IMG/VR virus record: IMGVR_UViG_3300030389_002941
Coordinates: 2,221-23,837 of that record
From: a virus
DNA: 21,617 nt
Direction: 5' to 3' (one strand)
Each line of letters opens with the position of its first letter. Positions within the stretch are counted from its first letter, which is position 1. The notes below the pieces were generated by a model. The model saw nothing but the letters and a program-made list of their open reading frames with translations, did not search any database and was not told the DNA's origin. Both the position numbers and the translations under genes were made by a program. Below are positions 3,382 through 17,494 of the stretch, piece after piece.

Positions 3382-3956
3382 TGGCAATTCCAGTATCTGA
3401 ATTACAATCACTTACAAATAAATCTATTATTGAACTTTATTCTTTAACTCTTGATAATAGTCTGCATGGATCTACCTCTGTAAGTAGATTTCATTCTGGG
3501 GTTGGTATGAATAGTAACGCCTCTATTATTTGGCAGGGCAATACTTATGATAAATTCCCAATTAAAGCCGAAGGGTTTGAATATAAATCATCTGGTGCAT
3601 TTCCTAGACCTAGTGTAAGCGTTTCTAATATTTTAAATACTATTACAGCATTAATGGCATCTGTTAATGCTACAACCCCATTTAATGACCTTCAAGGTGC
3701 AAAATTTATACGTCATAGAACGATGGCTCAATTTCTTGACGCTGCAAATTTTCCAAATAATACTAACCCATTTGGCACTCCTTCAAGTTCAACAGAACTG
3801 CCACAAGAAATTTATTATGTAAATCAAAAAGTATCAGAAACTAGAGAAGTTGTTGTTTTTGAATTAGTATCTGCTTTAGATATGGAATTTGTTACTGTTC
3901 CCTCAGCACAGGTTACAGATAAAGATTTTCCAGGAGTAGGAATGTTTATCGGATGA
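3381..3956 (+). CDS. Minor tail protein L-like (no C-terminal Cys domain)
   Basis: A 191-aa tail-tip protein of the lambda gpL type. It opens MAIPVSELQSL and contains 'IELYSLTLDN', 'IIWQGNTYDKFPIKAEGFEY', 'GAFPRPSVSVSNI', 'FIRHRTMAQFLD' and 'ELVSALDMEF', which is the usual order of L-family landmarks. It overlaps the M-like stop by 1 nt (taATG) and the K-like start by 4 nt (ATGA). There is no cysteine in the whole protein. Lambda gpL is about 232 aa with a Cys-rich C-terminal domain reported to hold an iron-sulfur cluster, so that domain is absent here. Confidence 0.8.
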   Translation: MAIPVSELQSLTNKSIIELYSLTLDNSLHGSTSVSRFHSGVGMNSNASIIWQGNTYDKFPIKAEGFEYKSSGAFPRPSVSVSNILNTITALMASVNATTPFNDLQGAKFIRHRTMAQFLDAANFPNNTNPFGTPSSSTELPQEIYYVNQKVSETREVVVFELVSALDMEFVTVPSAQVTDKDFPGVGMFIG

Positions 3957-4663
3957 TTTGGAAAACTGAAGCAGAAAAACACGCACAAGATTGTTTTCCT
4001 CAAGAATCTTGTGGATTACTTGCAATTATTAATGGCCAAGAAACTTATTGGCCTTGCAAAAATTTAGCAGATAATAGCATTGGTTTTTTTATTATCGACC
4101 CTGATGATTGGGCTGAGTGTGAAGATACAGGAGAAATTGTTGGAGTTGTTCATAGTCATCCAAAAGGGTGTGCAACACCATCTGAAACTGATTTTAAATC
4201 TTGTGAACACCTTGGGTATCCTTGGTATATTTTTAGCTTACAAGAAAAATACTGGCATGAATTCAAACCAAAAGGGTATGATAAAAAAGCAGAAATTATC
4301 GGCAGAAGATGGGTCTGGGGATTACACGATTGTTGGTCTGTAATTCATGACTGGTATGAACAGGAAAAAAATATTAAATTAAAAAATTGGGAAAGGCCTA
4401 AGAATTTAAAAGAATTTTGTAAAAATCCAATGTTTGAAAAATGTGCAGAAGAAACTGGTTTTGTATTAAGAAATAAAAACGAAGATCTTGAAAAAGGAGA
4501 TGTTCTTTTATTTGAAGGTTCATATAAAAAATTAAGTCATGTTGGTTTGTATATTGGAGATCAAACAATTTTGGAGCATAATTTAAATCAACTAAGTTGC
4601 AGAAGGATATATGATCTAAACTATATACAAGCTACAAAAAAAGTTTATTATTATGCAGCTTAA
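3953..4663 (+). CDS. Tail-tip K-like protein: JAB/MPN plus NlpC/P60 peptidase
   Basis: A 236-aa lambda gpK-like protein with two predicted peptidase domains. The N-terminal JAB/MPN metallopeptidase domain has ESCGLL (Glu18), VHSHP (His67 and His69) and a downstream Asp80, the expected zinc-site set. The C-terminal NlpC/P60 domain has GLHDCW (candidate nucleophile Cys127) and SHVGLYIGD (His196), with His209 as possible third residue. In this family the NlpC/P60 part cleaves cell-wall peptides at the tail tip during infection. No other cell-wall hydrolase was seen in the window. The start overlaps the L-like stop as ATGA, so translation is probably coupled. Confidence 0.9.
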   Translation: MIWKTEAEKHAQDCFPQESCGLLAIINGQETYWPCKNLADNSIGFFIIDPDDWAECEDTGEIVGVVHSHPKGCATPSETDFKSCEHLGYPWYIFSLQEKYWHEFKPKGYDKKAEIIGRRWVWGLHDCWSVIHDWYEQEKNIKLKNWERPKNLKEFCKNPMFEKCAEETGFVLRNKNEDLEKGDVLLFEGSYKKLSHVGLYIGDQTILEHNLNQLSCRRIYDLNYIQATKKVYYYAA

Positions 4664-5269: not shown

Positions 5270-8200
5270 ATGTCAAACAGTTCTAATTTTTTTAATTTCA
5301 GTAGTTTACAACAAAATATTCTTCTTCCATCGTTACCTGCTGGCACACTTGCAAGCACTCAATCAATAACAATTTTCGATTTATTAGGTTCTGGAGTAAT
5401 AAATGGTTTTCCTAGTGCGATTGCTGCAAATGCTACTCTAGGCACTGAATCTTATCTCAAAGCTGCACTCAAAGACGTATTTCTTAACGGGACACAGATA
5501 TTAAAACAAAGCGCAGATTTAGCAAATCCAAAAGCAGACGATTTTAATTTTGGTGGAATTACTTTTGAAGTAAGAGTTGGAACACATAATCAAGAAGCTA
5601 TAAAAAATGAACTTTTAATTTCTCAAGCACAAACAGAAACAAGTGTTCAAGTTCAAGTAACACAAGGTTCACCAATTTCAAGAACAATTACAAATCCTTG
5701 TGATCAGCTAAGGGTGACTATGGCTTTCCCTTCAATGCAAACATTTAATGACGATGGAACCATTAGTGGCGCGAGTGTGAATATAAAAATGAAAATTACA
5801 CAAAATAATGGAACAGTAAATGATCCTGTTATTGATGACACAATTACAGGACAATGTGGAAATGTTTATAAAAGAGATTATGGAATTACAACAGCTGGTT
5901 TTGATTTTCCGATAACTCTTACAGTAACAAGAGTTACAGCTGATTCAAATGTAGCTGCTTTACAAAATGATACTTTTTTTGACAGTTTTACAGAAATTCA
6001 GGCTGACCCTAATGCGTATGTTAACTCTGCTTACACAGCATTAAGATTATCTTCTCAAAGTTTTAGCGGTAGTGTTCCGCAGAGAATGTTTAGAGTTCAA
6101 GGTACAAAGGTATCAATTCCTCATAACGCTACCGTTCAAACAAATGGGGCTTTAGCTTATTCAGGCACATTTAATGGAACTTTTAAAACAGACAAAGAAT
6201 GGACAAATGATCCAGCGTGGATTTTGTATGACCTTTTGACTACAGATAAAGGTTTAGGACAACACATTGATTCTTCAAAAATTGATGTATTTAGTTTTTA
6301 TTCTGCTTCTGTATATTGTGCTGAAGGTGTTGATGATATGACTGGAACAGGAAATTTAGAGCCAAGATTTGCACTGAATACCGTTATAAGAGGTCAAACT
6401 TCTGCTTATAACATTATAAATAAAATTTGTTCTGTGATGAGGGCAACTGCTTATTATACAGCAGGTACTATTGAGCTTGGGCAAGATCGCCCCTCCGATC
6501 CAGTGTATTTGTTTAACTTATCTAATGTCACAGAGAATGGTTTTACTTATACAAACGCAAGCGTAAATACTAAATTCAACACTATAAATGTCAAGTATTT
6601 TAATACAGATATAAGAGAACCAGATTTTGTAACTGTAACTGATGATGCATTAATTTCAAAATATGGAGGAATTTTTGTTAAAAATATAGAGGCTTTTGGC
6701 TGCACTTCTTTTGGACAGGCAAGAAGGCTTGGAAAGTGGTTTCTCTACACTCAAAATAATGAAGCAGAGGTTATTTCATTTACAGCCACACTTGAAGCTG
6801 GTGTTATCGTAAGGCCAGCAATGAATATTGCTGTAAGTGACCCGATGAGGGCTGGTGTTAGACGTGGTGGAAGGATACAAAGTGCTACAACAACTGCTAT
6901 TACCGTAGATGATGAAGCTAATACAGATTTGACAAGTGCTAATTCTGCAACTTTATCAGTAATTTTGCCAGATGGATCGTTAGAAACAAAAACCATATCC
7001 AGTATTTCTAATAGAACAATTACTGTAAGCTCTGCCTTTTCTGCCGCACCAAATGCAAACAGTGTATGGGTTTTAGAAAATACAACAGTTGAAGCGCAAA
7101 CTTATAAAGTTATTAGTATTAAAGAGGTTCAAGATTCTTTATATGAAATTAGTGCGCTTATACATAATCCCAATAAATATGCAGAAGTTGAAGATGGTAC
7201 TTTTGTTGCAAAAAAAAGCACTTCTGTTTTAAATCAACCTTTATCAGGGCCGGAAAACCTTTCGGCAGCAGAATCTATTGTTGTCATAAATGGTAAATCC
7301 GTATCAAAAATTAATTTTAGTTTCAGTGCTGTAAATAACGCAAAAGAATACATAATTCAATATCGTTTTAATAATGGAAATTTCATAACAACTAAAACAC
7401 AATCTCTTGATTTTGAAATAATGAACTCTGTTTTAGGAACTTATGAGTTTAGAGTCTTTACTGTAAATAGCTTGGATCAATTTAGTGCAGTTCCATCAGA
7501 ATTTACTTTTAACGCTATTGGTAAAACTGCTTTACCTGAAGATGTAACTAATTTGAACAGTCAGCCGATTGATGAAAAAAACCTTAAGCTTACTTTTGAC
7601 CCGTCATTTTCAAAAGATGTTATTCATGGCGGTAATGTAGTTATTAAACATTCTTCAGATACAGCAACAAGTAGTTTTGCAAATAGTACTTTGATTGCTG
7701 GAGATATTGCTGGAAATGCATCAGAGGCAATTGTTCCAAATATTTCTGGAAAATATTTTGTTAAATTTAGGGACGATACAAATAATCTTTCTGAAAATGC
7801 AGCGGTTATTGTAATTTCAAAACCTGTTGCACAGCCTAACTTAGGAATACAGACAAGAAGAGAAGACACTGATAGCCCACCTTTTCAAGGTAATAAGGTA
7901 AGCACTTTTTATGATTCAACTTTAGATTTACTATTGTTATCAGGAGATTTAGAATTTGACAGCGTTACAGATGTAGATGCTTTATCAAGCTTTGATTTCT
8001 CAGGAGATATTGCAGAAAAAGGAATATATGATTTTGCTACTATTCTTGATTTAGGTTCCAAATTCACTTTAGAACTAGAAAAACATTTCAAAGTAAATGC
8101 ACTTTTAATTAATGATTTGTTTGATACAAGAAATGCTTTTATCGATACATGGGATGATTTTGATGGCACTAAAGCTGAAGCAGTAGACGCGCAATTATTT

Positions 8201-9133
8201 GTTTCAACAAGTGATAGTGATCCATCTGCAACAGTAGCAGCTACATATTCGCAAACTGGAAAAGATATTACAATCACAAAATCTTCACATGGAATAGTTG
8301 TTGGTGATCGTTTAAATATAACTTTTAGCACAGGAACCGCGACAAGTGGTTCTTTTGAAGTTTTAACAGTACCAAATGCCAATACCTTTACTGTTCAGGC
8401 AGCAATGATTGAGGCTTCATATACTTCATTCCCATTTGACTTGGCTAAAGTACAAGTGGCGACAAACAAAACACACCCTGCAGTTGATGATGTTGTTGAT
8501 ATAGTTGTTTTAACAGGATTTTTACCAAGTGGGCAATATAAGCTAACTGCTGCAAATTTAGATTCAGTTTTTGGAAAGCTCTTTATTGCTGATTCTTTTC
8601 CTGATGTTGCAAACCCTACAGCTGGTTCGATAGGAAAAGGGAAACTTCTTTTTACTGCTTCAACTGCCTCAACAAGTGGAAATTGTACAATAAGCAATAA
8701 ATTTAGTAAATTTAACAAATTTAACAGTGGTGAATTTGAGGGAAGGGCGTTTCAATTTAGGGCAATATTAAATTCTTTTGACCCTGCTCAAAATATTGGT
8801 ATTGAAGAATTAGGTTATACAGCATTTTTTAAACCAAGAGTAGAAAATTCTATTGAAAACAGCGGTGCAACTAATGGAATTTTTGCTTCTGGAACAAATA
8901 CAAAAGCAGTGACATTTCAACACCCGTTTTTTGCGGGTACTTCTGATTTGGGTGGATCTACATCTAAATATTTACCAAGTATTGGTATCACAATACAAAA
9001 TGCTCAAACTGGGGACTTTTTTATAGTGCATACAGTTACAGGGACAGGTTTTGAAATTGATGTAAAAAATGGAAGTAGTTTTGTAAACAGAAACTTTACA
9101 TATATTGCGTCTGGTTTTGGTAAAGGAGGATAG
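5270..9133 (+). CDS. Central tail-tip / host-specificity protein J-like
   Basis: A 1287-aa distal tail protein that would form the tail spike or fibre hub and contact the host receptor. The N-terminal landmarks fit lambda gpJ: DLLGSGVINGFPSA, 'ALKDVFLNGTQIL', then 'WTNDPAWILYDLLTT' at about 315 and FALNTVI. Residues about 650-860 look like one or two fibronectin-III-type domains ('KEYIIQYRF', 'YEFRVFTVN'). Residues about 991-1044 carry the same YSQTG module as the M-like protein. The last ~200 residues are Thr/Ser/Phe-rich and are the likely receptor-binding, variable part (inference). It ends GFGKGG. Confidence 0.9.
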   Translation: MSNSSNFFNFSSLQQNILLPSLPAGTLASTQSITIFDLLGSGVINGFPSAIAANATLGTESYLKAALKDVFLNGTQILKQSADLANPKADDFNFGGITFEVRVGTHNQEAIKNELLISQAQTETSVQVQVTQGSPISRTITNPCDQLRVTMAFPSMQTFNDDGTISGASVNIKMKITQNNGTVNDPVIDDTITGQCGNVYKRDYGITTAGFDFPITLTVTRVTADSNVAALQNDTFFDSFTEIQADPNAYVNSAYTALRLSSQSFSGSVPQRMFRVQGTKVSIPHNATVQTNGALAYSGTFNGTFKTDKEWTNDPAWILYDLLTTDKGLGQHIDSSKIDVFSFYSASVYCAEGVDDMTGTGNLEPRFALNTVIRGQTSAYNIINKICSVMRATAYYTAGTIELGQDRPSDPVYLFNLSNVTENGFTYTNASVNTKFNTINVKYFNTDIREPDFVTVTDDALISKYGGIFVKNIEAFGCTSFGQARRLGKWFLYTQNNEAEVISFTATLEAGVIVRPAMNIAVSDPMRAGVRRGGRIQSATTTAITVDDEANTDLTSANSATLSVILPDGSLETKTISSISNRTITVSSAFSAAPNANSVWVLENTTVEAQTYKVISIKEVQDSLYEISALIHNPNKYAEVEDGTFVAKKSTSVLNQPLSGPENLSAAESIVVINGKSVSKINFSFSAVNNAKEYIIQYRFNNGNFITTKTQSLDFEIMNSVLGTYEFRVFTVNSLDQFSAVPSEFTFNAIGKTALPEDVTNLNSQPIDEKNLKLTFDPSFSKDVIHGGNVVIKHSSDTATSSFANSTLIAGDIAGNASEAIVPNISGKYFVKFRDDTNNLSENAAVIVISKPVAQPNLGIQTRREDTDSPPFQGNKVSTFYDSTLDLLLLSGDLEFDSVTDVDALSSFDFSGDIAEKGIYDFATILDLGSKFTLELEKHFKVNALLINDLFDTRNAFIDTWDDFDGTKAEAVDAQLFVSTSDSDPSATVAATYSQTGKDITITKSSHGIVVGDRLNITFSTGTATSGSFEVLTVPNANTFTVQAAMIEASYTSFPFDLAKVQVATNKTHPAVDDVVDIVVLTGFLPSGQYKLTAANLDSVFGKLFIADSFPDVANPTAGSIGKGKLLFTASTASTSGNCTISNKFSKFNKFNSGEFEGRAFQFRAILNSFDPAQNIGIEELGYTAFFKPRVENSIENSGATNGIFASGTNTKAVTFQHPFFAGTSDLGGSTSKYLPSIGITIQNAQTGDFFIVHTVTGTGFEIDVKNGSSFVNRNFTYIASGFGKGG
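8240..8401 (+). other. 'YSQTG...HG...GD' beta-module inside J-like protein
   Basis: Residues about 991-1044 of the J-like protein: ATYSQTGKDITITKSSHG, then 'VVGDRLNITFSTGTA', then 'VPNANTFTV'. It is clearly related to the insert in the M-like protein (3073-3276), with the same order of motifs and a shared 14-nt stretch at the start. Confidence 0.68.
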
Positions 9134-9184: not shown

Positions 9185-10534
9185 ATGGCTACGCATGACT
9201 ACGTTATAGATAATGGAACAGGTTCTGCTGTTCGCGCGGATATTAATCTGGCTCTTCAAGCGATTGTAAGTTTAAATTCTTCAGCTACCGAACCATCTAC
9301 AAAATATGCTTACCAACTATGGGCCGACACTAATACAGGAATTTTAAAAATAAGAAATAGCGCCAACAACGCATGGATTGAGTTGCTCCAGTTGGATGGC
9401 ACCCTAACAATGGAGGATGGAAGTGCATCAGCCCCCGGTTTAGCTTTTAGGGATGATTTAGATACTGGAATCTTTCAAGGTGCTGCAAATGATTTAAGAA
9501 TCACAACAGGTGGTACAGAGGTAATGAGGATTGAAAATACAAACGTTGGTATTGGTGCTGGTTTAACAAGTGTTCCAAGAGCTTTAACAATAAGAACAGG
9601 TACTCAGTTTGATGGTGTTAGAATTATAAATGCTTCTGATCAAACCGTTGCGGAGTTAGGCGGTGCTGATACTGATAATGATACAGGCTTGCTAACGCTA
9701 TCAAATGATGGCTCTGGAAAAGTTCAATTAAATGCAAATGGAACATCTTTTATAAATAACACACTAGGTTTAGTTGTTGGAAGTGATCAGACTGTTAGAG
9801 GATTAGGGACTTTTGTAAATACAGGAGGGGATTGTAATCTTGCAGTGATAGGCGGTGACAGTAATAATTCACAACTTTTGATGGGCGACAATACTGATAT
9901 TGATGCTGGAAAAATACAATATGCAAACGCAGATAATTCATTACGATTCGTGGCAAATGCAACTGAAAGATTGCAACTTCATTCTAATGGTGGTGTATTT
10001 ATTGGCGTTAGTACAAGTCATGGCAGCAGTTCTTCAGGAATTGTAAATTTCGCTGGTTTTAGTTCTAGGAGAGGAACAGGAAATAATAATACTAGCAATG
10101 CTATCAACTGGGCATGGAACACCAGTGGAGGAACTAATGTATTAGAAGGTTGGGTTGACAATAGTAATGTCTGTTCAATAAATCAAAGTGCTTTCAATAT
10201 TACGTCTGACTACAGAATAAAAAAATCTGTAAAATCCATTACTTATAGTGTTTTAGATAAAATTCAAAAATTAAGACCTGTTCAATTTAATATAAAAGAT
10301 TATAAGGTTAATGGTCTTCTTTTACATAAAGATGATGATTTTGTGAAAACTGGTTTTATTGCACATGAAGTACAAGAACTTATTCCATCAGCTGTAAGAG
10401 AAAAAAAAGATGATGAAAAATTACAACAAATAGATCTTGCAGCCATTGTTACTACCCTTACAAAAGGCATGCAAGAATTAATTGATAAGGTTAATGTATT
10501 AGAGTCCGAACTTGCAGTATTGAAAGGCAATTAG
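9185..10534 (+). CDS. Tail fibre with C-terminal S74 intramolecular chaperone
   Basis: A 449-aa fibre-type protein. The N-terminus (MATHDYVIDNGTGSAVRADI, then 'STKYAYQLWADT', 'LKIRNSANNAWI') is a virion-attachment type common in marine phage fibres (recollection). The middle is a repetitive beta-rich shaft ('GLAFRDDLDTGIF', 'LQLHSNGGVFIG'). The C-terminal ~110 residues are a peptidase S74 / endosialidase chaperone domain: SDYRIKKSV with the Ser341 and Lys346 pair, 'RPVQFN', 'GFIAHEVQELIP', and a terminal heptad helix. In this family the domain trimerises the fibre and then cuts itself off before the Ser. It follows the J-like gene after a 51-nt gap. Confidence 0.88.
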   Translation: MATHDYVIDNGTGSAVRADINLALQAIVSLNSSATEPSTKYAYQLWADTNTGILKIRNSANNAWIELLQLDGTLTMEDGSASAPGLAFRDDLDTGIFQGAANDLRITTGGTEVMRIENTNVGIGAGLTSVPRALTIRTGTQFDGVRIINASDQTVAELGGADTDNDTGLLTLSNDGSGKVQLNANGTSFINNTLGLVVGSDQTVRGLGTFVNTGGDCNLAVIGGDSNNSQLLMGDNTDIDAGKIQYANADNSLRFVANATERLQLHSNGGVFIGVSTSHGSSSSGIVNFAGFSSRRGTGNNNTSNAINWAWNTSGGTNVLEGWVDNSNVCSINQSAFNITSDYRIKKSVKSITYSVLDKIQKLRPVQFNIKDYKVNGLLLHKDDDFVKTGFIAHEVQELIPSAVREKKDDEKLQQIDLAAIVTTLTKGMQELIDKVNVLESELAVLKGN

Positions 10535-10563
10535 TATATTTGTAATATTATATTAATTTTAAT

Positions 10564-10890
10564 ATGGCTGTTACTTGGAATGTTTTAGGTATTAGAAAAT
10601 TAGCAACTGAGGGTTCTTTATCTGATGTCTGTAAATTTATCGATTGGGAGTGTAAAGATTCTGAAACTGTAGATGACAAATTGCTAAGAGGATACGTTTG
10701 TAGCGATGTTGTATTGTCTGCTGCTGATTCTTCAAGTTTTGTTGCGTATGCAGATATTACATCTGATACGGCTGTCACATGGGTCAAAAATATATTAGGA
10801 ACAGAAAAAGTTGCAAAAATAGAAGCTGAAGTTACACGTCAAATTACAGAGCAAAAAACACCAACTTATACAACTGGCGTACCTTGGTAA
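10564..10890 (+). CDS. Small conserved phage protein after the tail fibre, unknown function
   Basis: A 108-aa protein opening MAVTWNVLGIRKL and ending TTGVPW. I recognise the general type ('FIDWECKDSE', 'FVAYADIT', 'AVTWVKNILG', 'QITEQKTP') as a small protein often found beside fibre genes in marine phage genomes, but know no function. There is no signal peptide or membrane segment. The probable roles are a minor virion component or fibre accessory (inference from position). Its TAA directly abuts the stop of the - strand ORF at 10891. Confidence 0.75.
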   Translation: MAVTWNVLGIRKLATEGSLSDVCKFIDWECKDSETVDDKLLRGYVCSDVVLSAADSSSFVAYADITSDTAVTWVKNILGTEKVAKIEAEVTRQITEQKTPTYTTGVPW

Positions 10891-11022
10891 TTAATTAGCT
10901 TTTACAGGAATATTTCTATCAAGTAGGCCATACATGACACGCAATGGTGCGAGTCCTATAATTAGAAAAAGCACCATTAATGTTATTGGTACGCTTGCCT
11001 TAAGAAGAGCATCACGAATCAT
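10891..11022 (-). CDS. 43-aa single-helix membrane protein (small ORF)
   Basis: Reads MIRDALLKASVPITLM, a hydrophobic run VLFLIIGLAPLRV, then YGLLDRN and a basic tail ending KAN. It has one clear membrane helix, and its codon third positions are mostly A/T like its neighbours. It fills the gap exactly: its stop abuts the TAA at 10888-10890, and its ATG shares the bases CATG with the + strand ATG at 11021. No Shine-Dalgarno sequence is visible. The + strand reading of the same stretch is unlike a protein. The function is unknown. Confidence 0.55.
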   Translation of the reverse strand: MIRDALLKASVPITLMVLFLIIGLAPLRVMYGLLDRNIPVKAN

Positions 11023-11335
11023 GTTTCAAAAAATAGCTAATGTTTTATCAATTATTTCATTTTTAATGGTTTCGTCAATGAGTGTTGGGGCATACTTAGC
11101 AATTCAATACATGAGATCGCCAGAATTTGAAAGAACCCTTAAAAACAAGATCATGGGTGATTTAAAAGAAAAAATGATTGAAGAAATACCAAAACAATTA
11201 CCAGAATTTAGTGGCCCATCTATACCAATGGTTAACAAAAAACAACTAGATCCTGATAATTGGTTCGATAACTATATTGAGAAAGAAAATAAAAAAAATT
11301 TAGACTGGGAAATAGAAGGTAAATGGAAAAGATAA
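11021..11335 (+). CDS. Membrane-anchored 104-aa protein, unknown (MFQKIANVLS type)
   Basis: The start is placed at MFQKIANVLSIISFLMV because the open frame upstream (from 10934) reads an unlikely Arg/Ser-rich sequence antisense to the 43-aa ORF. One membrane helix lies at about 9-31, followed by a charged helical and Pro-containing tail ('IPKQLPEFSGPSIP'). Proteins with this type of N-terminus occur, from memory, in marine cyanophages. The location after the fibre module and three bases before the next gene suggests a virion or envelope-associated accessory role, not proven. Confidence 0.65.
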   Translation: MFQKIANVLSIISFLMVSSMSVGAYLAIQYMRSPEFERTLKNKIMGDLKEKMIEEIPKQLPEFSGPSIPMVNKKQLDPDNWFDNYIEKENKKNLDWEIEGKWKR

Positions 11336-11338
11336 TAG

Positions 11339-11560
11339 ATGATATTTGGATTTTTTAAAAAACTTATAAAATATTACATTGATAAGGTTGTGTCTTGGTT
11401 AAGAGTAAAAAAATTACAACTTGAGCTTGATAGTGAAATAAAAAAATATCATGAAGAATTAGACGAAAAGATATTAAAACCCAAGATAATAGAAACTGGC
11501 AAGTTTGGTGAGGATGGGTGGTCTATTTCTATAGGAGATATAGAAGATGGAGATACCTGA
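11339..11560 (+). CDS. Small 73-aa amphipathic/coiled protein, unknown
   Basis: Opens MIFGFFKKLIKYYIDKVVSW, an amphipathic or membrane-touching N-terminus, followed by a Lys/Glu-rich coiled-coil-like segment and an acidic end ('GDIEDGDT'). It starts 3 nt after the preceding TAA and overlaps the next gene by 14 nt, so it is part of the same operon. No family is recognised. Confidence 0.6.
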   Translation: MIFGFFKKLIKYYIDKVVSWLRVKKLQLELDSEIKKYHEELDEKILKPKIIETGKFGEDGWSISIGDIEDGDT

Positions 11561-12188
11561 TATATCTATACCAAAAATAGATATACAACTAATAAATATT
11601 CCAATAAGTAATCCATACCAAGTTTTAAGCGTACCACTTCCATCATTAAAATTACCTGGATGTGTAAGGTATCACAGAGATGCTAGTCCAAAAAATACTG
11701 CTTTATATGATGATGACCCAAGGGGTACTACTATTTCATGTCCACATGGTTCGATGCCTACATTCCAGCCATTATTGTATGACAGAAGAAAAATAACAAT
11801 TACTGAAGGTAAAAAAGAAGATAAAAAAGTAAACAATGATGAGCAACCTAAATATGAACAAAAAAAACCTGAACTACCTAAGAAGAAAGAAGAGGAGTTT
11901 TTTATAAAATGTCCAGGTGACAAAGATCAAAGAGTAGGGGATTTCAGAAATTCCAAAAAATTAGAGGTTGTCGTATCTCATAAGTTATCAGATGATAAGA
12001 GTGAGTGCATAACGGTTTATGAAGACACAAAGTTTATCGACCAGTATCTTCCTACAGCCAAAGATGCTACTACTGCTGCTGGCATTGCTTTGGTCGCTGC
12101 TACTACTCCACTTCTTATTAATGCTATCAAGCCTTTGGTAAAACAATTGATAAAAAAACTGACAAAGAAGAAAAAAGATGTAAAATAG
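11547..12188 (+). CDS. MEIPDIS-type Pro/Lys-rich protein with C-terminal hydrophobic segment
   Basis: A 213-aa protein. The N-terminus is rich in Ile-Pro-Asp-Ile repeats ('MEIPDISIPKIDIQ', 'INIPIS'), then 'GCVRYHRDA', 'TTISCPHGSMPTF', a Lys/Glu/Pro linker at about 90-117, 'CPGDKDQRVGDFRN', 'ECITVYED', a hydrophobic segment at about 173-193 and a strongly basic tail (KKLTKKKKDVK). Four cysteines (two before the linker, two after it) could form disulfides outside the cell (inference). An AGGAG lies 9 nt before the ATG, one of the few good ribosome sites here. I recall similar proteins in cyanophages near structural genes; the function is unknown. Confidence 0.72.
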   Translation: MEIPDISIPKIDIQLINIPISNPYQVLSVPLPSLKLPGCVRYHRDASPKNTALYDDDPRGTTISCPHGSMPTFQPLLYDRRKITITEGKKEDKKVNNDEQPKYEQKKPELPKKKEEEFFIKCPGDKDQRVGDFRNSKKLEVVVSHKLSDDKSECITVYEDTKFIDQYLPTAKDATTAAGIALVAATTPLLINAIKPLVKQLIKKLTKKKKDVK

Positions 12189-12302: not shown

Positions 12303-12369
12303 AGCAACAGGCCCTACATATCCTCCTGTTAAATCAGGATGTGAGTTTCTGATGGATCGTTCTGTTGCT
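12303..12369 (+). repeat. 67-nt element closed by an 8-bp inverted repeat with inner hairpin
   Basis: AGCAACAG at 12303-12310 is complementary to CTGTTGCT at 12362-12369. Inside, TCCTG (12324-12328) pairs with CAGGA (12335-12339) around a 6-nt loop. Its right arm overlaps the stop codon of the - strand gene ending at 12368. It follows the 110-nt element by 2 nt, so the two form a tandem structured block between convergent operons. Confidence 0.6.
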
Positions 12370-13165
12370 ACTCTAATTTATGTTTGTGCGGTAATATCTG
12401 ATTAGCTTTTTCTACAATTTCTATATCTTTGCATAAATTATAGTAAGGGCTGTTTTTTTTAAATCTAATACCCGAAATTGCCTTCTCTCCGCAATGACGC
12501 AAACGTGCCATATGCCAGTCAAGTTCTAAATTTTTAAGCTTTTGTTTGTTTATATCATTCTGCACTTGAGCTGCCTCCTTGCACTGTTTTGTATATTGGC
12601 GATCTAATGGAATACTAAAATTCAATGTGATTCCTGTGCCAAGTGCATAACTATCTTTGTTTGTACCAGAATAATTCAATTGCTCAAAAAGTACGACACC
12701 TGGGTTATCTGGTGTGCCATCTCCAATAGGATTGCCATCATCATCAAAATCACCAACAATATCTGTTTGGTCATAAACAGGTGTCTTGTAATAATCTCGA
12801 TATGGTTTGCGAAAATTTGAATTAAATGTAGTGAATGGAGTTATGGTCATCATTGCACCTTGACAAACAACACCGCCACCATATTGATTTGTATGAAACC
12901 CACCATTATTAACATTCCAGTTTTGATTTGTCACGCTACCACTATTTGATTGACTAACTGAATTAGCAAAAACTCCTGTTGGTAAAAGGGCTATTGAAAG
13001 ACAGAGGTAGTAGTAACTACGGATTCCGTTTCTATTGTTCGATTTATGGTTGTTACGTTTTGTAATCCAGGGCCTGAATATGTTTCTGTAAATTGAAAGG
13101 CATCTCCTGAAGTGGGATTTGTAAGTGTCCAGTTTGGTTTTGTTGTCATATCTGCTCCTGTCCAT
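12368..13165 (-). CDS. Secreted/virion-associated protein with signal-peptide-like segment; start uncertain
   Basis: The open frame is 265 codons, but the first ~58 codons overlap the preceding gene and read as an Arg/Asn-rich out-of-frame sequence. The protein-like part begins around residue 51 with YYYLCLSIALLPTGVFANS, which resembles a signal peptide with cleavage after GVFA. No ATG, GTG or TTG occurs in frame between the ATG at 13165 and the region after that signal. The mature part has 'GGGVVCQG', an acidic Gly/Asp stretch, 'LNFSIPLD', then a helical 'DWHMARLRHCGEKAI' with several Cys. It is the last gene of the - strand cassette and resembles, from memory, a cyanophage hypothetical protein. 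Function unknown. Confidence 0.65.
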   Translation of the reverse strand: MDRSRYDNKTKLDTYKSHFRRCLSIYRNIFRPWITKRNNHKSNNRNGIRSYYYLCLSIALLPTGVFANSVSQSNSGSVTNQNWNVNNGGFHTNQYGGGVVCQGAMMTITPFTTFNSNFRKPYRDYYKTPVYDQTDIVGDFDDDGNPIGDGTPDNPGVVLFEQLNYSGTNKDSYALGTGITLNFSIPLDRQYTKQCKEAAQVQNDINKQKLKNLELDWHMARLRHCGEKAISGIRFKKNSPYYNLCKDIEIVEKANQILPHKHKLE

Positions 13166-13416
13166 GTATAACTTTGCCCTCCTACTGTTCCTGTGACTTG
13201 AGTTGCATCGGGCGACATATTACCTCCATCATGTTTGATGCCTGTTCCTGTAACGGTATATTCGTAGCCTGTTTTATAATCTTTACTGGTAATAGATTCT
13301 GTAATTGTACTCTGCGTATTTGTTGTACTGGACATTGTTCCAGTTGTAAAATTTGGAACGATATTTGCGTTAACTGGTAAAGCATATATAAAAAACAGTA
13401 ATAAAAGCTTCCGCAT
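12991..13416 (-). CDS. Secreted Ser/Thr-rich protein, paralogue of its upstream neighbour
   Basis: A 141-aa protein with a clear signal peptide (MRKLLLLFFIYALPVNAN, cleavage about 16-18) and a Thr/Ser/Gly-rich beta-type body with no membrane segment after the signal. 'YEYTVTGTGIKHDGG' corresponds to 'YSVSGTGVNTTDG' in the 160-aa gene upstream, so the two look like distant duplicates. It starts 6 nt after its neighbour's stop, and its 3' end overlaps the open frame of the next gene. No known function; possibly a surface or virion decoration protein (inference). Confidence 0.72.
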   Translation of the reverse strand: MRKLLLLFFIYALPVNANIVPNFTTGTMSSTTNTQSTITESITSKDYKTGYEYTVTGTGIKHDGGNMSPDATQVTGTVGGQSYTWTGADMTTKPNWTLTNPTSGDAFQFTETYSGPGLQNVTTINRTIETESVVTTTSVFQ

Positions 13417-13422
13417 AGCTCA

Positions 13423-13905
13423 TTAGTCTACTGTTACGGAGGTTACATATTGTCCTGTTGCAGTTGTACCTGAACCGCCTGCTGTTATTTGTACAACGTG
13501 ATTATCAACTGTACCTGCAAGTGTACCTGCTGTACCTCCCGAAGTACTGGTCAAATCTCCAAAAGGTGAGACTTCGCCAGTGGTCAAACTTGTTGAAATA
13601 GTATCACCTGTCGTATGTGAGACTGTATATGAGAATGATTCACCATCTGTCAGTTGACTTGCTGTAATTGGCGTATAAGAATTTATGCCATTAGTGGCTG
13701 CACCTAATCCTCCTAAACTTCCAGCAGTTGTGCCATCAGTTGTATTTACTCCCGTTCCAGAAACACTGTATGAGTTTCCAATACGATCTGCTGTAGTTCC
13801 TGGGGCTGCTACTTCAAGCTTGACACTTGAAGTAATTGAAGATGTTATATCAGCATACGAAGCTGGCATAACAGCAAGTAACAAAATTGGAAGAAGCTTT
13901 TTCAT
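13423..13905 (-). CDS. Secreted Ser/Thr/Gly-rich protein, unknown
   Basis: A 160-aa protein with a signal peptide (MKKLLPILLLAVMPASYA, cleavage after Ala18). The body is rich in Thr, Ser and Gly with repeated 'GTTAG', 'GGTAGTLAGT' and 'GGSGTTATGQ' motifs and no Cys, consistent with an extracellular beta-structured protein. The ATG overlaps the stop of the upstream membrane-protein gene as ATGA, so translation is coupled. I recall similar proteins in cyanophages; no function is known to me. Confidence 0.72.
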   Translation of the reverse strand: MKKLLPILLLAVMPASYADITSSITSSVKLEVAAPGTTADRIGNSYSVSGTGVNTTDGTTAGSLGGLGAATNGINSYTPITASQLTDGESFSYTVSHTTGDTISTSLTTGEVSPFGDLTSTSGGTAGTLAGTVDNHVVQITAGGSGTTATGQYVTSVTVD

Positions 13906-14207
13906 TTTTTTACAACTCCAACTTTAGAGTCTTTATTGTCAACTATCTTAACATTATCATTTAGTTTTCTTTTGTCAGCACCTTTTTTAATATTTAGGCC
14001 GTACTGAGCAGTGACAGCACTCAGCAAACCTGCTGCAAAAGTTGTATCAATTTGCCTTGTAGGGTTTGGATTAAAATACGACCAAGAAATTACTCCCAAA
14101 CTCCAAAAAAGTATAATCATCTGCACCACATTGGCAATCAGACTATTGCCTTCTTTTTCCTGATCTTCCATGTAAAAAAAAAGCTGCTTGTGGGTATCTC
14201 TAAGCAT
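13902..14207 (-). CDS. Small two-helix membrane protein, holin-like candidate
   Basis: A 101-aa protein: short polar N-terminus, helix 1 at about 22-44 (SLIANVVQMIILFWSLGVIS followed by WSYF), a short loop 'NPNPTRQID', helix 2 at about 55-70 (TTFAAGLLSAVTAQYG), then a Lys/Asp-rich tail. Size, two helices and charged C-terminus fit small phage holins, but no lysis enzyme lies next to it, so this is only a candidate. A second Met at residue 13 could be the start; neither has a good ribosome site. It is first in the - strand cassette. Confidence 0.62.
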   Translation of the reverse strand: MLRDTHKQLFFYMEDQEKEGNSLIANVVQMIILFWSLGVISWSYFNPNPTRQIDTTFAAGLLSAVTAQYGLNIKKGADKRKLNDNVKIVDNKDSKVGVVKK

Positions 14208-14235
14208 TGACCACTGCTTAACAAACAGCTATGTG
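14207..14235 (+). promoter_or_regulatory. Possible sigma70-type promoter for the + strand gene pair
   Basis: TTGACC at 14207-14212 is followed after 17 nt by TATGTG at 14230-14235. The -35 matches well and the -10 poorly. It lies between the divergent genes at 14207 (-) and 14284 (+), where a promoter is needed. Confidence 0.3.
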
Positions 14236-14283
14236 CCAAATTTAGCAAATACTGTTATGTTTGGAAAGTAACACAATAAAACA

Positions 14284-14445
14284 ATGTCAAAGTTTCTAAT
14301 TAATTTATTTATCAAGTTCGGCAAAAGTGAATCGCTTCGTAAGGCAACGTTGTCACTACTTAAAAATTTAGTGGCCAAAACTGATAATGATGTAGACGAT
14401 GCCATCGTCAAGATGATCGAAGAAAAACTCTTCCCAGTAAAATGA
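14284..14445 (+). CDS. 53-aa small protein, first of a coupled + strand pair
   Basis: Reads MSKFLINLFIKFGKSESLRK, then 'LSLLKNLVAKTDNDVDDAI' and ends EEKLFPVK. It is helical, amphipathic and charge-balanced. It is shorter than most gene-finder limits, but its stop overlaps the next start as ATGA (14442-14445), which strongly supports that it is translated. The - strand reading of the same bases is unlike protein. I recall similar short proteins in marine phages but no function. Confidence 0.7.
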   Translation: MSKFLINLFIKFGKSESLRKATLSLLKNLVAKTDNDVDDAIVKMIEEKLFPVK

Positions 14446-15255: not shown

Positions 15256-15576
15256 TTAGGCTGGGATTGCTTCTGAGTTTCTACTCTTCACAGGTAATGT
15301 AAAGTCATTCACTCTTACCTGAATGGATGCTCCAGGGCTGCCATCTCTTTTTTCAAAAGTATTTAGGTTGCCAGATCCTGTGACGGTAATTTGACTGCCT
15401 TTTTTTATGTAGTCCATGACGACATCTCCTCGATTGCCCCATACAGTGCAATCAACTTGCACAGTCACATCTTGGATGTCTGTTAGTAGTCTGAAATTAG
15501 TAACTTTAGTACCTTGAGAAGTTTCCTTCTGTACTGGATCTGAGGCTAAGTTGCCAACTGCTGTAATGCTTAACAT
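15256..15576 (-). CDS. ssb: Single-stranded DNA-binding protein
   Basis: A 106-aa OB-fold SSB: MLSITAVGNLASDPVQKETS, 'VTNFRLLTD', 'VDCTVWGNRGDVVMDYIKKG', 'ITVTGSGNLNTFEKRDGSPG', 'VRVNDFTLP'. It coats single strands for recombination and replication. It lacks the disordered linker and acidic DDDIPF-type tip that cellular SSBs use to recruit partners; it ends SRNSEAIPA. It is downstream of the HTH gene with a 10-nt gap and upstream of a terminator. Confidence 0.88.
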   Translation of the reverse strand: MLSITAVGNLASDPVQKETSQGTKVTNFRLLTDIQDVTVQVDCTVWGNRGDVVMDYIKKGSQITVTGSGNLNTFEKRDGSPGASIQVRVNDFTLPVKSRNSEAIPA

Positions 15577-15586
15577 GATAATTTAA

Positions 15587-15781
15587 TTAGTCAGGGTTGT
15601 TAGTTTTGTTTTGCCAATCCTCAATATCTTCTCGGTTGTACCGAATAGTGTTATTAAGGATGACAGTCCATTTTGGGCCACTGGGATGACCCTTGCGAGT
15701 TTTGGTTCTCCAAAGTCGCACAGTTTGAGGTTTTACACCAAGCTCTTCAGCCAATTGATCTGAGGTTATAAGTTCATTCAT
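15587..15781 (-). CDS. Helix-turn-helix (HTH_17 / excisionase-like) DNA-binding protein
   Basis: A 64-aa protein: 'TSDQLAEELGVKPQTVRLWR' is a winged-HTH DNA-reading helix pair, followed by 'RYNREDIEDWQ', the standard MerR/excisionase HTH_17 pattern. The role may be transcription control or excision; no integrase is visible to choose between them. The ATG overlaps the stop of the Rad52-type gene as ATGA, so it is coupled to the recombination module. Confidence 0.8.
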   Translation of the reverse strand: MNELITSDQLAEELGVKPQTVRLWRTKTRKGHPSGPKWTVILNNTIRYNREDIEDWQNKTNNPD

Positions 15782-16410
15782 GAATCCTCCTTCTCTAAAA
15801 TAAGTGTCAGTAATCCATCTCTTTGATCTTCACTAATAGCATTAGTTTCATATCGTTTTGAAATGTTTTTCTTTAACAAACCGAGCTTGTCTTTATTACT
15901 TGGTTTATTGATAAAGGCTTCACATTCTTTGATGAACTTATCACTTTCGGATCTGTCAATCGGTTTATTACTTGAGACAGCTGGTTTACTATCATCAGGT
16001 TTTAACCATGCCTTGTCTTTATCGTATAAAGACAGGCCAAATTGATCTCCAAACTGCATCAGCGCACGTTTTCTTGCATCACTTTCCGCTTCTTTAATCG
16101 CTGATTCATGCTTCTCACCGATACTACCCATGCGACCATGACCAGAGCCATAACCTTCTCTAATTACATCACCGACAGTAATTCTTACTTTTGCAATATA
16201 AGAGACACATTTAGGATCTTCTGCAACAAGGCCAGCTTCTATTGTTTCAGAACTCCAACCATCAAAACCAAAGATGCGGTTGGCTTCCTGTATAACGTGC
16301 CAGCTTTCAACATAAGCTAACTTCTGACCACCGCCACCAGGTCTGAAAGTAACATTGTCTTTGTTAATTTTTTGGTTAAGCAGTTTTTTCTGCTCTTCAT
16401 TAAAACTCAT
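15778..16410 (-). CDS. Rad52-family single-strand annealing protein
   Basis: A 210-aa protein. The start is placed at MSFNEEQKKLLNQK (16410) because that ATG overlaps the exonuclease TGA as ATGA; a longer frame from 16437 exists. The N-terminal ~135 residues fit the Rad52/Rad22 fold: 'KLAYVESWHVIQEANRIFG', 'GFDGWSSETI', 'YIAKVRITVGD', 'EGYGSGHGRMG', 'AIKEAESDARKRAL', 'FGDQFGLSLYDKDK'. It anneals complementary strands produced by the exonuclease next to it. The C-terminal ~75 residues are charged, probably for partner contacts (inference). Confidence 0.85.
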   Translation of the reverse strand: MSFNEEQKKLLNQKINKDNVTFRPGGGGQKLAYVESWHVIQEANRIFGFDGWSSETIEAGLVAEDPKCVSYIAKVRITVGDVIREGYGSGHGRMGSIGEKHESAIKEAESDARKRALMQFGDQFGLSLYDKDKAWLKPDDSKPAVSSNKPIDRSESDKFIKECEAFINKPSNKDKLGLLKKNISKRYETNAISEDQRDGLLTLILEKEDS

Positions 16411-17210
16411 TTTTCTAAGGGGGTTGTAAATGCCCATCTAGGCAAGGATAAAGATTGAACACCTGTTTGACACCAGCTTGGCCAATCATCAAGCAGGCGA
16501 CATTCGGCAATCTTATCTAGTGCTTCTCTAGACAGTTTTTGCCCTTCTTGCAATGCATCATCATCAAGCTCCCACAAACCAACATCAAATGGATACTCAG
16601 ATTGCACTACAAGAAAAATAAATCTTTTTGCTGATGGAATACCATTGAGATAATGTTTTGCCTGCAAATGATAGGTGAAATTGGCTACAGCTTTTGCAAA
16701 GTCTCTAGGGTTTGCTCCTGTTCTACTGGTTTTTAAATCCACAATAGTTTCTTTATTCAACCAGTCAGGTCTACACTTACAAGTTAAACCAGAGGTCTTA
16801 TCATCCCACCAGTATGATTTCTCTGCAATACCAAAACTCAGTAATTTCTTGGCATGAGGTTCTGCAAAGACCGCATCTCTCATCTTAATTGCATTTTCCA
16901 TATCAGATTCAGTAACAGCAGTAAGACCTTTTGCTTCAGCTTCCTTTGCCTCTTCCTTACCTTTTTTGGTTGTCCTAGAAGATACTGCCACAAATCTTTT
17001 TGTCAGTTCATCTGGTTCAAGTACAGCACAATGAGTTAAGGTTCCCAAAAGCATTGCACTTGTCGGTTTATGTTCTGGCCTTTCAGGATTAAGAAAAGAG
17101 TTCCAATAAGCCTTTGGGCCATGCTTGACCATAGTTTTTTGCATGGATGCTGAGATCGCATCATCAGCATGGTATTTTTCGTTTGAAATTTGTATTGATC
17201 CTGTTGTCAT
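16407..17210 (-). CDS. RecE-like / PD-(D/E)XK exonuclease
   Basis: A 267-aa protein. The start is at MTTGSIQISNEKYHADDAIS (17210), which overlaps the previous stop as ATGA; the frame is open further upstream, inside the 95-aa gene. The RecE/ExoVIII-type pattern is 'AISASMQKTMVKHGP', 'LGTLTHCAVLEP', then the nuclease core with Asp149 (RPDW), Asp158 and Lys160 (VDLKT), and YHLQAKHYL with Gln183. It degrades one strand at DNA ends and hands the remainder to the Rad52-type annealing protein encoded next. Confidence 0.87.
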   Translation of the reverse strand: MTTGSIQISNEKYHADDAISASMQKTMVKHGPKAYWNSFLNPERPEHKPTSAMLLGTLTHCAVLEPDELTKRFVAVSSRTTKKGKEEAKEAEAKGLTAVTESDMENAIKMRDAVFAEPHAKKLLSFGIAEKSYWWDDKTSGLTCKCRPDWLNKETIVDLKTSRTGANPRDFAKAVANFTYHLQAKHYLNGIPSAKRFIFLVVQSEYPFDVGLWELDDDALQEGQKLSREALDKIAECRLLDDWPSWCQTGVQSLSLPRWAFTTPLEK

Positions 17211-17494
17211 GAGTCTGTGTACCTCTTTGTATGAGGGCCATACTGCATCATCAAACGTGGCCATGTTTTCAAGATAAGTGCTTTATCCTGTGGCATTGCA
17301 ACAAGACCAGCTTGAGCAATTCTTTTTAAAAATGGTGATGCTTCTGGAGAATCAATAACAGATGCAAATGTATTAAAGATTTCTTTCTCAGTCATAGTTA
17401 AGATTGGGTTGCCGAGGTCGGAGCGTTCAGGGGTTGGTCGCTTCTTCCTCGGTGATTTATGAAAACGCAGACCAAGATCATATTCACTCATCAT
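17207..17494 (-). CDS. 95-aa conserved-looking protein before the exonuclease, unknown
   Basis: Opens MMSEYDLGLRFHKSPRKKRP (either Met may be used), then a basic/Pro segment and a helical part ('NTFASVIDSPEAS', 'KRIAQAGLVAM', 'MMQYGPHTKRY'). It is coupled on both sides by ATGA overlaps. No domain is recognised. Position suggests a partner or regulator of the recombination proteins (inference). Confidence 0.68.
   Translation of the reverse strand: MMSEYDLGLRFHKSPRKKRPTPERSDLGNPILTMTEKEIFNTFASVIDSPEASPFLKRIAQAGLVAMPQDKALILKTWPRLMMQYGPHTKRYTDS

Follow-up and report, generated by a model that had tools for sequence, protein, structure and literature searches.

Here, we show that a block of genes encoding membrane and exported proteins is conserved as a unit, in a fixed order, across cyanophages of unrelated virion types, that its products carry export signals, and that two of its genes, g3 and g4, overlap out of frame, with the start codon of g4 lying inside g3. 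The block was examined in a stretch of viral DNA of 21,617 nucleotides (the window), which belongs to a 27.6-kb virus record (IMG/VR record IMGVR_UViG_3300030389_002941). Signal peptides or hydrophobic segments are predicted to send the cassette proteins to the envelope. Judging from this topology, the position of the locus and the lack of spanins, we tentatively propose that the cassette may be an envelope-spanning module that breaches the outer membrane at egress in place of spanins. New here are the recognition of a cross-morphotype unit, the co-occurrence of its genes, the dual-coding overlap kept in all classes, and a connection, open to testing, with the question of the missing spanins; the cassette is larger than first described, and part of it was published in 2010.

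The core consists of four ORFs on the minus strand: g1 (13902..14207), a small membrane protein of DUF6450 (E = 1e-8; P-SSP7 gene 43); g2 (13423..13905), a Ser/Thr-rich secreted protein of phrog_564 (9e-48); g3 (12991..13416), a secreted protein of DUF6322 (7e-32)/phrog_650; and g4 (12368..13165), a 265-aa protein of phrog_848 (2e-68)/'gp165'. All four match curated families and are therefore not chance ORFs, which bears out their place and strand in the earlier note. The description of g2 and g3 as two paralogous signal-peptide proteins is likewise confirmed, by BLASTP (E = 1e-4) and by 299 ORFs matched by both HMMs; the structural model of g3 also retrieved a g2-like S-SCSM1 protein with a Foldseek probability of 96%. 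The bounds proposed for the operon hold only in part. Although the ORFs are as described, g4 does not follow g3 but starts within it, the true start of g1 is probably the ATG at 14171 (90 aa, MEDQEK...) rather than 14207 because g1 relatives begin MxxQE, and the unit does not end at 12368, as the convergent genes c1 and c3 belong to it.

On the plus strand, c1 (11547..12188; phrog_570) converges with g4 and encodes a Cys-containing protein with a Pro-rich middle, a C-terminal hydrophobic segment and a basic tail. It is accompanied by c2 (11339..11560), a small protein with a weak match to phrog_6464 found in only part of the siphoviral loci, by c3 (10934..11335; phrog_568) and by c4 (10564..10890; DUF7936/phrog_7802), which is frequent but not constant and adjoins the module also in the T7-like phage 9515-10a and in P-HS2. 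On the other side, x0 (14284..14445, plus strand; 53 aa) diverges from g1 in the window; it lies 3' of g4 in most T7-like members, and Syn5 gp48 (phrog_2738) is x0. The divergent intergenic region between g1 and x0 (14172..14283, unstranded) contains a conserved element, probably a shared divergent regulatory element: positions 14226-14270 are 89% identical over 45 bp to P-SCSP1 T7-like podoviruses at the same g1/x0 junction. Other siphoviral loci have a different core at this junction, TTTCCAAACATAGC. An Rfam search returned no RNA family.

The window phage is related to two siphophages of Prochlorococcus, MED4-117 and P-HS2; its tail protein J (5270-9133) is nearest to those of the Prochlorococcus MED4 siphophages MED4-117 and MED4-184/P-HS2 (44% over 90%). 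From these relatives and the distribution of the cassette, we infer that its hosts are marine picocyanobacteria. The cassettes of MED4-117 and MED4-184/P-HS2 share with the window their genes, the gene order and the location between tail and early modules, whereas their g4 starts 139 nt before the end of g3 (175 nt in the window) and their mature g4 is about 30% identical to that of the window. Elsewhere, the window encodes a lambda K-like JAB + NlpC/P60 tail protein (3953-4663), which holds the only peptidoglycan-hydrolase-like domain among the window proteins scanned, a fibre-like protein with a C-terminal Peptidase_S74 self-cleaving chaperone domain (9185-10534), and one operon (15256-17264) of an SSB, a Rad52/22-family annealing protein and a DUF3799 PDDEXK nuclease. 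The cassette is flanked by the tail operon on one side and the replication/recombination operon on the other, in agreement with the earlier view of an intact, coupled unit of membrane and secreted proteins between late and early modules.

Among 50,697 phage records, g4 was detected in 440 (462 at E 0.1) and g3 in 407, and all matches among named phages are marine cyanophages or marine single-cell viruses. We fetched about 300 loci with g4, and mapping them with HMMs resolved three layouts. In siphoviral loci (layout A), x0 is divergent and g1, g2, g3 and g4 converge with c1, (c2), c3 and (c4); in T4-like loci (layout B), g2, g3 and g4 converge with c1 ... c3 and g1; and in T7-like loci (layout C), a c1-like gene, g1, g3, g4 and x0 lie on one strand between the tail-fibre genes and the terminase small subunit. 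Selection on g4 was avoided by fetching loci with g1 or c1 instead. Every locus fetched by g1 (51/51) or by c1 (63/63) carried both g3 and g4, gene order was kept in all 62 of 62 such loci, c1 converged with g4 in 69/69 loci fetched by c1, and c3 was found in 63/63. Independent scattering of the genes, named beforehand as the outcome that would speak against a unit, is ruled out by this co-occurrence.

The cassette core occurs in Kyanoviridae, S-TIM5, T7-like and siphoviral cyanophages, that is, in four virion lineages, suggesting that the constraint on it follows the host and not the virion. For example, P-SSP7, MED4-117 and S-SM1 carry both g3 and g4. The T7-like phages P-SSP7 (042-045), 9515-10a, P-SSP3, P-SCSP1, S-TIP37 and P-RSP2 resemble the window in having g1-g3-g4 with the overlap and, upstream of g1, a c1-like protein; they differ in that g2 is missing from most of them, c3 is absent, and the c1-like protein is short, Cys-poor and encoded on the same strand as g1-g3-g4. 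The family of this protein, phrog_9426, is a probable homologue of c1 (hhalign probability 93%, E 3e-7, 45 columns in the C-terminal segment), and no more than probable because the matched segment is rich in Ala, Thr and Lys. In a scan of genome contigs for host homologues, T4-like g4 was found only on two contigs of ~188-189 kb: QCLS01000003.1 from a Prochlorococcus single cell (AG-418-C09), probably an infecting phage, and NZ_RMVE01000006.1 from Nonlabens xiamenensis, probably a contaminating cyanophage genome.

The cassette had been taken to be undescribed, which cannot be upheld, since its T4-like version was published in 2010. Sullivan et al. reported that T4-GCs 218, 219, 234, 235 and 237 cluster in 15/16 T4-like cyanophages, often together with a 'plasmid stability' gene, and regarded them as possibly mobile, functionally linked hypothetical genes (PMC3037559). 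The cluster as listed there matches that of the window in most genes, with g1 corresponding to T4-GC 218, g2 to 237, g4 to 235, c1 to 234 and c3 to 414 ('plasmid stability'), in the same convergent layout. T4-GC labels on the Syn19 and S-SM1 record matches tie g2 and g4 to the adjacent 237 and 235, and Syn19 T4-GC 218 is a DUF6450 protein (E = 1e-35), as is g1 of the window. The two differ in that g1 heads the g2-g4 operon in the window and ends the convergent operon in T4-like phages, and no homologue of T4-GC 219 was found in the window cassette, where c2 occupies its place. The cluster list of that paper does not name g3 (T4-GC 236), and its main text describes neither g3/g4 dual coding nor a T7-like link. 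The name 'plasmid stability' has been copied through many cyanophage records and looks unsupported; c3 is a short protein with a single TM segment and no Pfam match. The cassette is also present, unremarked, in the MED4-117, P-HS2 and P-SSP7 records. Nothing on its function appears in the freely readable main texts of papers that deal with the transcription, evolution, structure or engineering of cyanophages, none of these texts connects the copies in siphoviruses with those in T4-like and T7-like phages, and we found no paper that mentions DUF6322.

In all four phage classes, g4 starts inside g3, with an out-of-frame overlap of 139-208 nt. In the window, the overlap spans 175 nt (12991..13165, minus strand), which form the 3' part of g3 and the 5' part of g4, and a Shine-Dalgarno-like AGGAGGG within g3 (13177..13183, minus strand) lies 11 nt 5' of the g4 ATG (13165); no other ATG, GTG or TTG precedes the signal peptide of the window g4. 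Counted from the end of the g3 stop, the ATG lies at -175/-178 in the window group, -172/-178 in T4-like, -139 in MED4-117-like and -208 in T7-like phages. Across distinct but related sequences, which are not independent trials, the g4 frame is open through the overlap in 65/65, 43/44, 71/72 and 76/79 members of the four classes, while it stays open in only 2-9% of synonymous reshufflings of g3. The ATG is kept in 62/65 window-group sequences, against 59% expected if the g3 codon before it were drawn at random among its synonyms. Likewise, Shine-Dalgarno-like motifs stand 5' of this ATG in 97% of window-group sequences (background 14%), 67% of the MED4-117 group (background 6%) and 26% of T4-like sequences (background 11%), and in 0% of T7-like ones.

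Synonymous-site constraint gives a mixed picture as proof of dual coding. Conservation is higher within the overlap for window-like (0.36 vs 0.44), T7-like (0.38 vs 0.47) and T4-like (0.30 vs 0.32) sequences, but not for MED4-117-like ones (0.44 vs 0.41); the open-frame, start-codon and Shine-Dalgarno tests are the stronger evidence. Taken together, open frame, ATG and Shine-Dalgarno-like motif make the predicted start of g4 inside g3 well supported for the siphoviruses, while the predicted T7-like start is based on open frame and ATG. By eye, there is no slippery heptamer at the overlap that would indicate a g3-g4 frameshift fusion. In P-SSM2 and Bellamy, g4 is annotated as starting after the g3 stop, yet the upstream frame is open and homologous. 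For the window group, a start after g3 was rejected because most loci have no downstream start codon and conserve the ATG within g3. The P-SSM2 and Bellamy starts are probably misannotations owing to the overlap, which often causes g4 to be given a wrong start or to be missed. Since g4 starts inside g3, its signal peptide is preceded by a long basic n-region of 34-57 residues (about 50 in the window) with a mean net charge between +4 and +12; next come a hydrophobic stretch and an A-x-A-like cleavage site.

How might these proteins act together? The inner membrane would hold g1 and, through its hydrophobic C-terminus, c1, whereas g2, g3 and g4 would be exported through Sec, with the basic n-region of g4 on the cytoplasmic side. 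The signal peptide of g2 is MKKLLPILLLAVMPASYA, and mature g4 has four invariant Cys. A class II holin has two TMDs (N-in/C-in) and short soluble ends; hydropathy of g1 shows one segment over the threshold and one weaker segment in the window and two segments over the threshold in Syn19, its tail varies in length, and two TM regions are given for the homologue in the P-SSP7 record. The proteins would work late in infection, come together in the periplasm or outer membrane and, as infection ends, open up or disrupt the outer membrane, the job done elsewhere by Rz/Rz1-type spanins, with g1 as the holin-like member and g3/g4 as the members acting on the outer membrane. In T7-like cyanophages, the module occupies the interval that in T7 contains holin 17.5, and Syn5, in which g3 and g4 are missing, encodes at this place gp47, which is 86 aa long with a hydrophobic N-terminal part and a coiled-coil-like remainder (gp47/gp48 at 10393-10836 of locus L312).

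Kongari et al. (2018) could find no spanins in 20 phages of Prochlorococcus and Synechococcus; in their view, the substitute might be a type I inner-membrane protein whose TMD is C-terminal, together with an outer-membrane protein (PMC6139136). Consistent with this, a lipobox regex scan of all frames yielded no candidate either in the window or in the whole MED4-117 genome, and no i-spanin (N-terminal TMD plus periplasmic coiled coil) was found among g1-g4, the hydrophobic segment of c1 being C-terminal instead. Two-component spanins (lambda Rz/Rz1, T7 18.5/18.7) and g3/g4 have in common overlapping genes, an exported or membrane pair and periplasmic Cys; the cassette differs from them in having no lipobox, no i-spanin with an N-terminal TMD and no sequence similarity, and we propose a functional analogy only.

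Envelope topology, distribution by host group, the holin interval in T7-like phages and the lack of spanins together favour an egress module, a possibility we nevertheless rate as short of even. Somewhat less probable is the fuller version, in which the module would be an outer-membrane-disruption system specific to the host group, would supply the egress machinery that spanin-less marine cyanophages otherwise lack, and would be shared horizontally among T4-like, T7-like, TIM5-like and lambda-like phages, with outer parts g3 and g4 that overlap out of frame and an export of g4 that depends on an n-region inside g3. The main objection to an egress role is that spanins as well as g3 and g4 are missing from S-PM2, Syn5 and PSS2, so that the module cannot be the only answer. 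Further points against it are that the module contains no peptidoglycan hydrolase and that g2-g4 have neither a lipobox nor similarity to spanins.

The absence of g3 and g4 from S-PM2, Syn5 and PSS2, indicating that the cassette is dispensable, would suit superinfection exclusion or receptor masking, in which exported proteins coat or remodel the outer surface and block adsorption or injection by other cyanophages. Membrane and exported proteins without an enzyme domain, confined to phages of one host group whatever the virion type, are in line with such a function. However, exclusion genes are usually early and diverse, whereas the cassette is deeply conserved in sequence and order, and its place among late genes in T7-like phages, along with a weak late-promoter signal, points to late expression. 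This signal, which also speaks weakly for egress, is CTAAATA 31-36 nt before g2 in 9/32 T4-like upstreams and in 0/37 before c1; it is weak because the reverse hexamer is equally frequent, and a late promoter before g2 is suggestive only. We regard exclusion as unlikely.

Structure predictions bear on a more doubtful alternative, namely that g3/g4 form an oligomeric outer-membrane pore that alters permeability, either to let in nutrients in short supply, phosphate for instance, or for export. In the AlphaFold2 model of g4 (pLDDT 65, pTM 0.30), beta-hairpins are followed by a 43-residue helix, with a local strand-helix motif (SIPL...) like that of TolC/OEP (PF02321), and many T4-like copies of the cassette adjoin hsp20/pstS. 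Against a channel, the model offers only two to four strands per chain at low confidence, and the pstS link is absent from siphoviral and podoviral loci. Membership of g4 in the TolC/OEP family was rejected: the best Pfam match (E = 0.005, in 3/55 members) is below the cut-off, hhalign gives a probability of 2%, HMMER finds no match to TolC/CusC, and the Foldseek likeness to outer-membrane pores has E>0.8. Neither g3 nor g4 has a significant match in the PDB by sequence or by fold, their pore-like fold matches being poor (E>0.2, rmsd 17-35 A, TM ~0.15), and in BFVD g3 retrieves members of its own family with no significant fold match outside it.

The model of g3 (pLDDT 82, pTM 0.43) has strands of 22-23 residues at its N- and C-terminal ends. 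Exported Ser/Thr-rich beta proteins with predicted long strands, such as g2 and g3, could also be surface structures or adhesins released in infection, for instance in aggregation or vesicle formation, and have no part in lysis. We consider this less probable again, given their obligate partnership with the membrane proteins g1, c1 and c3 and a search that found no adhesin-typical repeats or anchors. Least likely of the listed functions, and very improbable, is virion decoration or a tail role, to which the position opposite the tail operon in the window and after the tail-fibre genes in T7-like phages might point, because the cassette proteins have cleavable Sec-type signals and an identical block occurs in contractile, long-flexible and short-tailed phages; moreover, the record of S-SM1, whose virions were analysed by MS (PMC3037559), keeps the cassette genes 'hypothetical' while labelling others structural, and S-TIM5 gp59-62 have no structural label while gp67, 69 and 70 do.

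Much of the photosynthesis in the ocean is the work of marine picocyanobacteria, and canonical spanins, by which their phages might break out, could not be found in ~20 sequenced cyanophages (PMC6139136). A gene-deletion method for cyanophages has been published and demonstrated on S-TIP37 and Syn9 (PMC8776855), both of which carry g3 and g4, and together with the fixed four-gene core it makes the egress question directly testable. Conserved across cyanophages that are otherwise unrelated, and undetected in other named phages, the block is a strong candidate for a function imposed by the host envelope.
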